Source: Ilyonectria destructans
Lineage: Eukaryota; Ascomycota; Sordariomycetes; Hypocreales; Nectriaceae
Assembly (NCBI GenBank): GCA_020740775.1
Contig: JAHEWK010000001.1
Coordinates: forward strand, 2,852,001 to 2,916,000
Length of the DNA: 64,000 bases
Direction of reading: 5' to 3'
Positions 41,027-46,251 of this stretch are shown here, one piece after another; the stretch's first letter is position 1; each line of letters opens with the position of its first letter. The translations under genes and the position numbers were made by a program. The notes below the pieces were generated by a model that searched no databases, had not been told where the DNA came from, and saw only the letters and a program-made list of their open reading frames with translations.

Positions 41027-42710
41027 ATGTCTGCCGTTCCCGGCCCCGTCTACGGCCTCGAGGTCCCGCCTGGCGAGATCCTCATCCCGGCCGCGATGGA
41101 GTTCCCTGCCTCTGTAAGTTTCTGCTCCAACCCATTGGCGCTGTCAAATACCATGCTACGGCTTCCTGTCGCTGTGCTGAGTGCGCCGACACTCGCCAAC
41201 GCGCGCCGCCAGCTTCCCATGACCGCTGTCCATGCCTATCGCATCTGCCTGCTGACCGCGAAAATCACAGTTCCGCATCACCATGGCTGCTGTCGATCCC
41301 ACTGAGGAGCCTGAGGCCGATGACGAGGGCAACGTTCCCTCCGTCCCTCGTTCCACTCTCCGACTGGTCAAGCGTGCCTTCCCCGGTCTTAACGACGAGG
41401 ACGATGAGATTGACGAGGAGTACATGAGGGCCCTCATGGGCGCCTCTGATGATGATGATGAGGACGACGAGGATGAGGAGGCCAACGGTGGTCCCAGCGA
41501 CCCCGCCAAGTCCAAGAAGCAGAAGCAGGCTGCTGCCATCAAGAAGCTCCTCGAGGCCAGCCAGGAGTCTTCCGATGAGGAGATGGAGGATGCTAAGCCC
41601 AACGGCAAGGCCAAGGGTAAGGCCAAGGCCACCAAGGAGGAGGAGGAGGATGACGAGGAGGAAGATGATGAGGAGGACTCTGATGATGACAGCGAGGATG
41701 GCGCTGATCTCGAGAACTTTGTCATCTGCACTCTCGACACTGAGAGGGTACGACCAACCCAACCCCCCCTTGCCCGTTTCTTGATGCATTTCAGTCCACT
41801 AACAGTCTGCACAGAACTACCAGCAGCCCCTCGACATCACCGTCAACCACGGTGAGAAGGTCTTCTTTGTCGTCACTGGTACCCACACCGTCTACCTCAC
41901 CGGCAACTACATCATGGATGATGATGAGGATGAGGATGACGAGGATGAGGACGACTATGACCTTTCCCCCGATGAGCTCGAGTACGCCCTCGGCGAGGAC
42001 GCGAGCGATGATGAGAGCGACGAGCTCGACGGTCTTGACGACCCCCGTGTCACTGAGGTCGACTCCGAGGAGGAGGCCCCCAAGCTGGTCCCCGTCAAGA
42101 AGGGCAAGAACAAGCGCACCGCTGAGGAGGCTACCGAGGGTCTCGATGAGCTCATCACCAAGGAGGACACCAAGCTGTCCAAGAAGCAGCAGAAGAAGCT
42201 CAAGAACAACAAGGGCGAGCCCGTTGCCACCGAGGACAGCAAGAAGAAGGTCCAGTTCGCCAAGAACCTCGAGCAGGGCCCCACCGGCTCCAGCGAGAAG
42301 GCCAAGCAGACCAAGGCTGCCACTGGTGTCAAGGTTGTCCAGGGCGTTACCGTTGACGACCGCACCGCCGGCAACGGCCGCACTGCCAAGAACGGCGACA
42401 CCGTCGGTGTCCGATACATCGGCAAGCTCGCCAACGGCCAGCAGTTTGATGGTGAGTGATGAAAACCCTGAACAGAAACTGTGCCGCCTACTAACACACT
42501 ACAGCCAACAAGAAGGGTAAGCCTTTTGCCTTCAAGGTCGGCAAGGGCCAAGTCATCAAGGGCTGGGACGTCGGTATCGTCGGCATGGCTATTGGCGGCG
42601 AGCGTCGCCTGACCATTCCCGCCCACCTTGCCTACGGCTCTCGTGGCATGCCCGGCATCCCCGCCAACAGCCAGCTGACCTTCGACGTCAAGCTGCTCGA
42701 GATCAAGTGA
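41027..42710 (+). CDS. FPR4: Nucleolar FKBP-type peptidyl-prolyl isomerase (FPR3/FPR4 type)
   Basis: Model: exons 41027-41113, 41271-41747, 41815-42451 and 42505-42710, 468 aa. The N-terminal part is a nucleoplasmin-like domain that continues over the third exon ([23 protein letters not shown]). It is split by long acidic Asp/Glu runs with basic Lys patches, as in histone-binding nucleolar FKBPs. The C-terminal about 88 residues are a complete FKBP domain: [33 protein letters not shown] and [10 protein letters not shown], keeping the Tyr, Phe, Asp, Val-Ile, Trp and Tyr that line the rapamycin/FK506 and proline pocket. In yeast such proteins isomerise prolines in histone tails and act as histone chaperones. 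The last splice (GATG|GTGAGT) falls inside the FKBP fold, between QQFD and ANKKG. Confidence 0.95.
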
Positions 42711-43500: not shown

Positions 43501-46251
43501 ATGGGTCCAACCATGCACCGCCAAGGCAACCCCCCATTAATGCATACGCTTTCATTCGACTCAATTGAATCCCCTCCCAAATCATCCATGCCATGTCCTC
43601 CTCCTCGAGATATTGCTGCCGGTCAGCATGTGCTGAGGCTTCGTCACACTAGCTCAAAGGTGTGGTCCGACATCCGGGGCGCCATCAAGGCAATCGGGAG
43701 AAGCAGTAACGGCAGTAAGGGGACATTTTGATTTTTAATAAGTTCACAACTCATGATTACTAGGTTTTCAAGATCCAACGGTGGCCAAATGGACTCCCAG
43801 AGACACGACCCCCGAACCCTGCCACGGCAAGATTACCGCTGTGAATAACGAACGAATTCCCCCCTCAACACCCCAAGTCAAAGGCATAACGCCTAAGGAT
43901 ATCCTTAGAAAGCTACGACTCAAGCACCCAGCTCTATCTTCAAACACTACGGTTGTGCTCCGAACACCTCCCCTCCGGGGTCGAAGTTCACTCCAGGCTC
44001 TAACCAGCGTCCACTTCCCATCATCCAGCGAGTTCGATTCATCACACTCTTCAAATGAGACAAACAAGATGTCCACTATCGCTGACGAGTCAACACGAAA
44101 GACCTCGGTGGACTCACGATTCTCGTGTTCGACCAAACCCACGGCAAACAGACGGCATAGCAGGCGAAATCCATGGACACGATCAAGCCCAGAGGGAGGT
44201 GCTCTTAATACCATTCAGGAGTCGGGTATCTCTTTGGCCCAACCTACCGTTGAGACCGTAGAGAGAGCTGCAGCTGCCAAGATCTACCTGGAGACCAAGT
44301 TCAACGAGTTGCTGCACAAGCCCAACACGCGAGGAGTCCGGCGACAGTATCTCGAGTCCCAGCTCTACTACAGCCCTCACCTCACCCTAGAGCAGAAACA
44401 GGCCATTTATGAGTCCTTTAACAACCAAGAGACATGGCACCTGAGAGAAATACGGGTGATGAAATCACAAAGTCTTGCCGTTGGGAGGGAGAAATCAGCT
44501 AGTCCGTACCTCGACCACTACGAGCCCCTCCAAGTCTTGGGAAAGGGAAGCTTTGGGGTTGTGCGGCTGGTTCGGGAGAAGCATGCCACAGGACACACCT
44601 TTTCAAGACAAGTGTATGCGATGAAAGTGATTCGAAAGTCCGAAATGCTGCGAAGCTGCCAAGAGGGCCATTTGAGGGCTGAGAGAGACTTCCTTGTCGC
44701 GTCCGAGGGATCGAACTGGTGGGTGTTTCCAATAATTTGGTTGAAGATTTGAAGGATGAACTGCTAACATTGTTACCACTAGGGTTGTTCCCTTAATCTC
44801 CAGCTTTCAAGACACCAATCATCTCTACTTGGTGATGGAATACATGCCCGGCGGGGACTTTTTGGGGCTATTAATCCGGGAAAATATTCTCCATGAATCT
44901 GTTGCACGCTTCTACATAGCCGAGATGATCTTGGCTGTCGAAGAAGCACATCGCCTTAAATTCATTCACCGAGATATCAAACCGGACAACTTTCTCATCT
45001 CCGCATCGGGACATCTCAAGATCTCAGATTTTGGCCTTGCCTTCGATGGCCACTGGTCCCATGACGCCTCGTACTATAATTGTCACCGGTATTCGCTGGT
45101 TCGAAAGCTTGGGATCAATGTTAGCGGAGATGAAGTTGACCAAAAGAGCAACCGCGGGATGCTGACACAGTTCGAATGGTACAAATCACTCGTCGAGGGC
45201 CTGGAGCGACACGGAAAGCTTCCCATCGATGCAGACGAAGACCTTGAGGACCTTGTTGGTTAGAGAAACCAGCATGGAAATCGCATGGCCGCGAATTCCG
45301 TTGTCGGAACGAGCCAGTACATGGCCCCTGAAGTTGTCTTGGGGCAGAAATACGATGGCAGATGCGATTAGTAGAGCATCGGCATCATCTTGTATGAGTG
45401 TCTGTATGGACACACCCCGTTTCTGTCAGAGGAAGGACGGAAACAAACCAAGCGGAATATTCAGGTGAGTATCGCATTTAGGCTGAGCAGGTGTTGGTTT
45501 GCTAAAACTTACACGCTGATAGGATTACAAGAGTCACTTTTACTTTCCCCAGAGACCCCTCGCCAGCGATAAATGTAAAGATTTGATATTCCGTCTGATG
45601 CAAGACAAGGAACATCGGCTCTGCTCAAGAAGATATTATATGAAGGACCGCAGTCAACCTGATGGGTCCCGATTCAGGGACTTCTTTGGGCGGCATGTCT
45701 TTCCAGACGATGCAGAGGATATCAAGTCACACCGCTGGTTCAAGAACGTACCTTGGGACCGCCTGCAGACAATAACTCCCCCGTTCATCCCAAATATCGA
45801 GGGCGCCGACGATACACACTATTTCGATGAATCAGATATCATCGACGATTGGTCGGAGTCGTCGCCCTCAGGGGCTCTCTTGACCCCAGAAGATGTACGG
45901 CAAGTGCTGCGTGACTTCGAGCCACGGGTACAGAGCCAAGCGGCGAAGCTCATTGAATCTCCATTCGACTCGACGAAGTTACGGAAGATGGACCGTCAGA
46001 TCGAGGAGTCGCGGGAGCTGAGGTTGGAAGAGAAGGAGATGCTTAAGCACTTTGTGAGGCTATATGGCCAGAAAGAGCGCAAGCGACCCAGGGATATTTT
46101 GCTGCGGGACAATAATATCAAGGACGGCGTAATGGACATCAGGAAGAAGACGGCCTTTATGGGCTACACTTGGCGGAGGATGAGACCAGGGGGTTATACG
46201 GCCACGAGAGTGATTGACCGAGGGCGGATGGCTACTGAAATGCTCGTCTAA
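43501..46251 (+). CDS. PUK1: PUK1-like NDR-family kinase with three in-frame TAG codons
   Basis: Model: exons 43501-43714, 43764-44718, 44783-45464 and 45523-46251, 860 codons. Seen in order: a Ser/Thr-rich N terminus; a helical region (about residues 238-300) like the MOB-binding segment of NDR kinases; P-loop GKGSFGV (331-337), Lys359, HRDIKPDN (Asp454), DFG (472-474), MAPE, then a C-terminal AGC tail. Three stops lie in frame, all TAG: codon 550 (45261-45263) and codons 586-587 (45369-45374), the tandem pair replacing Trp-Trp of the CDWWSIG motif. There is no other stop or frameshift, and all splice sites are intact. Established: Fusarium PUK1 has tandem UAG in its kinase domain that is changed to UGG by A-to-I mRNA editing in perithecia. 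Inferred: this is its orthologue and is functional only after editing. The alternative is a pseudogene made by TGG-to-TAG change. Confidence 0.85.
45254..45274 (+). other. RNA hairpin holding the first TAG adenosine
   Basis: Bases 45254-45261 pair with 45267-45274 (eight pairs, one G-U), leaving a five-base loop AGAGA. The first loop base, 45262, is the A of the TAG at 45261-45263. Fungal A-to-I editing is known to favour UAG contexts and hairpin loops. Drawn by eye, not folded by program. Confidence 0.65.
45354..45386 (+). other. RNA hairpin holding both tandem TAG adenosines
   Basis: GATGC at 45361-45365 pairs perfectly with GCATC at 45376-45380, and an outer GATG (45354-45357) can pair with CATC (45383-45386). 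The ten-base loop 45366-45375 contains TAGTAG, so adenosines 45370 and 45373 are both unpaired. Drawn by eye. Confidence 0.65.

Follow-up and report, generated by a model that had tools for sequence, protein, structure and literature searches.

Three in-frame TAG codons in a PUK1/stk-21 kinase gene of Ilyonectria destructans: a known tandem editing site and a likely third one

The stretch of Ilyonectria destructans DNA analysed here (the window, 64,000 nucleotides in its full length) contains a protein kinase gene at 43501..46251 of the plus strand, with an FKBP-type gene to its left. The kinase gene has four exons that add up to 2580 nt, or 860 codons counting the stop, and it ends with TAA. 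Three TAG codons lie in frame, at codons 550, 586 and 587 (A at 45262, 45370 and 45373), and no other stop or frameshift was found in the frame. The features of the locus are the following:

41027..42704, plus strand: FKBP-type neighbour gene, in pieces 41027-41113, 41265-41789, 41812-42453 and 42504-42704
43501-43714, 43764-44718, 44783-45464 and 45523-46251, plus strand: exons of the kinase gene, putative PUK1/stk-21 ortholog, NDR-type
43715..43763, plus strand: intron 1, 49 bases, GTAAGG ... CTAG
44719..44782, plus strand: intron 2, 64 bases, GTGGGT ... CTAG
45254..45274, plus strand: predicted RNA hairpin at TAG 550, 8 bp with a 5-base loop (AGAGA) in which the A of the TAG is first
45261..45263, plus strand: TAG codon 550, proposed third editing site, A at 45262
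45361..45380, plus strand: predicted RNA hairpin at the tandem pair, 5 bp with a 10-base loop (GATTAGTAGA), both stops inside
45369..45374, plus strand: both TAGs of the tandem pair, codons 586 and 587, at the CD[WW]SIG motif where PUK1 is known to be edited, with A at 45370 and 45373
45465..45522, plus strand: intron 3, 58 bases, GTGAGT ... ATAG, downstream of all three TAGs

The original prediction had described an 860-codon frame broken by three TAGs alone, and its coordinates and codon numbers proved correct when the exons were re-derived; the rebuilt coding sequence is, as had been claimed, free of internal TAA and TGA codons and of frameshifts. The proposed exons and splice sites were also upheld, and donor GTAAGG at 43715 is preferred because the alignment of homologs fits the longer form. 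A weaker donor for intron 1 at 43706 was considered and rejected, since it loses three codons where the relatives align gap-free to the longer form. The remaining Trp codons of the gene, 11 in number, are all TGG. TAG, TAA and TGA triplets occur 1011, 818 and 2109 times, respectively, in both strands of the window. A 479-base piece of the kinase gene had a single match in the whole genome (71.7 Mb in 74 contigs).

A protein search with X at the stops retrieved 1502 proteins from 7996 scored candidates, and the homolog counts for the kinase refer to the best 120 of these 1502. The top matches among them were Nectriaceae kinases from Dactylonectria, Thelonectria, Neonectria, Cosmosporella and Fusarium (among the matches listed, 76% over 86% for Dactylonectria and 84% over 73% for Neonectria). 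The Pfam search of the product gave a protein kinase domain, and the best solved relatives were the NDR kinases CBK1 of yeast (E 9e-73) and human STK38 (NDR1, E 7e-70). All three X columns lie opposite Trp in the CBK1 alignment. The HRD, DFG-type and APE motifs are present, as in NDR-type kinases, and the hydrophobic motif FMGYTW is retained at residue 829, past the stops. From its sequence we identify the gene as the PUK1/stk-21 ortholog, an assignment based on the shared tandem site and the family. The orthology and the NDR type proposed at the outset were thus corroborated, the closest relatives being Hypocrealean PUK1-type kinases.

The neighbouring FKBP-type gene is fused with the kinase in the annotations of three listed homologs (P0010, P0038 and P0119) and therefore the neighbourhood is shared with these relatives. 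This neighbour sits on the plus strand, and a search of the minus strand for it found no domain. A further gene in the window encodes a product that shares 93% identity with a Dactylonectria macrodidyma protein across 69% of the query. Together with the identity of RID given below, this places the genome close to Ilyonectria, Dactylonectria and Neonectria within the Nectriaceae. The name Ilyonectria is absent among the best 120 of 1502 kinase homologs, and the search with RID (see below) lists a cluster of ten members named Ilyonectria. The missing Ilyonectria kinases might be due to gene models that the stops disrupted, and some of them may be inside the cluster of P0001 (3 members).

The tandem TAG falls exactly at the Trp-Trp of the kinase motif CD[WW]SIG, a placement already claimed and now confirmed by the alignment. 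The two columns have WW in 41 of the best 120 homologs, a gap followed by W in 14 and gaps in both in 65. These gaps are skipped stretches of protein: 13 proteins restart right at the second W, 21 at the following Ser, and 45 are gapped otherwise. An intron ending there between codons requires a preceding AG, which a TAG would provide and a TGG cannot. In Fusarium graminearum PUK1 both tandem stops are edited, at 91% and 99% according to the parts available of PMC4817773 and PMC11156358. Codons 586/587 are this published editing site, familiar from other fungi and here found in a further species, and by analogy with these close relatives the pair is almost certainly edited in Ilyonectria as well.

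Codon 550 is a different matter. The original prediction treated the three TAGs alike, which stands for 586/587 and not for 550, since the latter is not a published site; it is the new part of the finding. Its column has Trp in 113 of the best 120 homologs, Pro in 3 and a gap in 4, and Trp also in yeast CBK1. The Pro residues belong to a divergent stretch (P0059, P0078 and P0096), and the gaps are in P0002, P0023, P0049 and P0115. Trp is found in Dactylonectria estremocensis and Neonectria punicea, and judged from the proteins none of the listed homologs (best 120 of 1502) has a stop at 550; as the relatives have Trp, TAG 550 looks recent. The protein of Thelonectria olida (P0002) is without residues 548-587, a skip that a stop in or close to codon 550 would likewise produce. 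Similarly, the Metarhizium proteins P0023 and P0049 jump from before codon 550 to 588, as a stop near 550 would also make them do. In the available portions of the literature on PUK1/stk-21 and premature-stop editing we found no PUK1 carrying a third stop, and titles and beginnings of abstracts gave no match that joins Ilyonectria and RNA editing as a subject.

Edited sites have known flanking-base preferences, with +2 being without effect on specificity, as stated in the accessible text of PMC9600606. The bases of codon 550 from -2 to +4 are U, U, (A), G, A, G, A, which are the preferred ones at -2, -1, +1, +3 and +4. Codon 586 also has the preferred base at these five positions, and its U at +2 is neither preferred nor depleted. 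Codon 587 has preferred bases at -1, +1 and +3, a well-populated group. In the predicted RNA structures, the A of TAG 550 was in the loop in all those sampled, and the hairpin-loop probabilities of the three As were 1.0, 0.998 and 0.62. A fold as stable as the hairpin of TAG 550 is reached by 1.3% of the A-centred 31-mers of the coding sequence. Among all 678 As of the coding sequence, 28% have a hairpin probability of at least 0.6 and 7.2% are at 0.99. The three TAG codons all are at 0.6 or above vs only one of the 11 TGG codons, with a p value of 0.011 that is optimistic because the cut-off of 0.6 was chosen post hoc, another TGG has 0.585, and 586 and 587 share one loop. This contrast in predicted structure gives modest support for editing. 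Codon 550 thus combines U at -1, preferred flanks and an A in a predicted hairpin loop, the features looked for in an editing site; edited sites tend to lie in stable hairpin loops. The original prediction had held that a closest match to a different kinase, with TGG in its orthologues and TAG in this strain alone, would refute it. Half of that is found at 550, where the relatives have Trp (113 of the 120 listed), and yet the surrounding bases and the hairpin still speak for editing there.

The kind of codon change can also be counted, taking the three TAGs as former TGG codons. Of all nonsense paths, TGG to TAG accounts for 3.9% without weighting (14 of 358), and for 9.4% (56 of 598) or 12.2% (112 of 918) when transitions carry a weight of 4 or 8, respectively. 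The probability that three of three stops are of this type is therefore ~0.00006 to 0.002, given independent events. Scanning the window for open stretches split by a single stop gave no excess of TAG, with 6 of 25 at a minimum of 100 codons on each side and 14 of 51 at a minimum of 80.

We have compared the rate of change before and after the stops, using changes private to the kinase vs changes private to its sister in residues 230-546 (before) and 585-856 (after). This numbering follows the model that is three codons shorter, in which 547, 583 and 584 correspond to 550, 586 and 587. None of 15 sister/outgroup contrasts showed a significant difference between the two parts (lowest Fisher p 0.081). 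Some of the 15 lean to faster change after the stops, so a mild relaxation there is possible. A rate test on the whole N-terminus was set aside, the gene models of the relatives being poor in that part. Just past codon 550 only 1 of 23 residues is different from D. estremocensis.

The genome also contains the components of the Sordariomycete Tad2-Tad3-Ame1 editing system. There are matches to yeast TAD2 and to yeast TAD3, the Tad3 with HCV in place of the HAE of active deaminases. Among three DUF726 loci one is the Ame1 ortholog (C34:1650000-1656500), with MV 31 and 30 residues ahead of its catalytic Ser, which is followed by Asp at a distance of 58 residues and by His at 98. Ame1 of F. graminearum has the same Ser/Asp/His spacing, with an editing-critical MV at the contact with Tad3 (PMC11087585 and PMC11156358, from the portions available). 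The Tad2-Tad3-Ame1 complex of F. graminearum is reported to edit mRNA when introduced into E. coli or yeast (PMC11087585). The other two DUF726 genes (C3 and C1) have AH and SL in place of MV. TAGs in these two DUF726 genes were considered as Ame1 editing sites and rejected; by eye, in three frames, they fall at exon frame changes and probably lie in introns. In addition, codon 205 in the ortholog of RID, the RIP methyltransferase (C12:3842500-3848500), is an in-frame TAG with its A at C12:3845555 on the minus strand, and RID is reported among the genes that require premature-stop correction in the accessible part of PMC11156358. The RID protein shares 89% identity with a protein from Ilyonectria sp. 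MPI-CAGE-AT-0026. At column 205 the 120 listed homologs divide into 64 with W, 4 with N, 1 with H and 51 with a gap; of the gapped ones 37 restart directly past the TAG column, often in annotated Nectriaceae. The RID TAG fell into a predicted hairpin loop when 15 flanking bases were folded with it, and into an interior loop when there were 30. With Tad2, Tad3, Ame1 and the RID TAG, the genome therefore retains the editor and a second gene of the stop-correction set. Searching the genome for the MAT1-1 alpha-box with PF04769 gave no match, and the control genomes were also silent. PF00505, for the HMG box, had 11 matches; five loci were inspected and none was assigned as MAT1-2-1, the control genomes being silent here too.

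The best reading of these data is a gene already known for premature-stop correction to which a third editing site was added in this lineage. We consider it probable that this PUK1/stk-21 kinase has all three TAGs edited; for codon 550 taken by itself, context and predicted hairpin make editing likely, with less support than at 586/587. The unedited message would give only a dead fragment, the kinase being cut off within its activation segment. In the course of sexual development, the A of UAG 550, 586 and 587 would be converted by the Tad2-Tad3-Ame1 deaminase into inosine, read as G; with Trp at each of the three codons, translation would then yield a complete NDR-type kinase. That this would happen in sexual tissue only is taken from the literature on relatives. 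The third site could have been gained because an existing editing system tolerates TGG to TAG changes at editable places. Tentatively, this might work as a ratchet, in which one editable TAG is followed by further well-looped Trp codons, up to three stops in two hairpins. Its outcome, equally speculative, could be a triple lock that holds the kinase off outside sex and binds the lineage to editing and to the sexual cycle, even where none is seen.

The serious rival is that the tandem TAG is edited and TAG 550 is a loss-of-function mutation or polymorphism where the gene is no longer needed. The Trp seen at 550 in D. estremocensis, N. punicea and most other listed homologs (113 of the 120 in all) is what it expects, as is the fact that no mating-type gene was identified by the PF04769 and PF00505 searches (controls silent), and in a single genome a fixed site and the null allele of one strain look the same. 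However, only 4-12% of random nonsense changes would turn TGG into TAG, the hairpin probability of 0.99 found for TAG 550 is reached by just 7.2% of the 678 coding As, and a private null finds neither a second lesion nor a significant change of rate downstream. We regard this as unlikely. A sequencing or assembly error at 550, which is known from a single assembly, is much less probable still: a lone error would hardly strike a Trp codon with an editing context, and the window and the whole genome agree at this TAG, though they are the same data.

The stops might also lie inside an unannotated intron, as predicted in many relatives, and actually one or both tandem residues are missing in 79 of the 120 listed homologs, 34 of which restart exactly past the putative TAG. 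But such an intron would take out conserved kinase residues, CD among them, the stretch right behind codon 550 is conserved (a single difference from D. estremocensis in 23 residues), and cDNA of F. graminearum retains the predicted intron (PMC7306014, in the text accessible), which makes this reading very improbable. RIP (repeat-induced point mutation) of a dead gene would give TGG to TAG through the CpA-bearing strand, the product expected from the opposite-strand CCA by the known preference of RIP. Against it, the TpA/ApT and (CpA+TpG)/(ApC+GpT) ratios of the coding sequence (0.54 and 1.28; window 0.60 and 1.26) are ordinary, none of 127 one-kilobase windows is RIP-like, the 479-base piece of the gene is single copy and 11 TGG codons are unaltered, so that RIP deserves hardly any weight.

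Returning to the reading with three edited stops, if codon 550 is edited PUK1 would be a gene with a stepwise range from zero through one and two to three stops, with gains that could be placed on a tree, and the view of a neutral ratchet could be tested against that of a selected off-switch. Many members of the group are known chiefly from asexual forms. For such a largely asexually known group editing at 550 would predict sexual reproduction. The stops of PUK1 have been proposed to arise neutrally where editing can correct them (PMC5381528, in the portion available), and a third stop fits this origin; the opposing view, of premature stops under selection, is summarised in the accessible text of PMC12754623.

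Among known systems, FgRID needs stop correction according to the available part of PMC11156358, and the Ilyonectria RID has an in-frame TAG at a column that is mostly Trp or gapped in its homologs; it differs from the kinase by its single stop and a weaker predicted hairpin, and its site may be the one of FgRID. For the kinase the available text of PMC4817773 describes three counterparts. Fusarium graminearum PUK1 (FGRRES_01058), in which UAGUAG becomes UGGUGG, is the same kinase with the tandem stop at CD[WW]SIG in an otherwise open frame. Neurospora crassa stk-21 (NCU03242) is the same gene with the same site but has the first stop of the pair only, and Fusarium verticillioides FVEG_01191 has the second only. 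In PUK1 two stops were reported and their editing was measured, whereas the Ilyonectria gene has a third stop, at 550, in a predicted hairpin of its own, for which editing is inferred.
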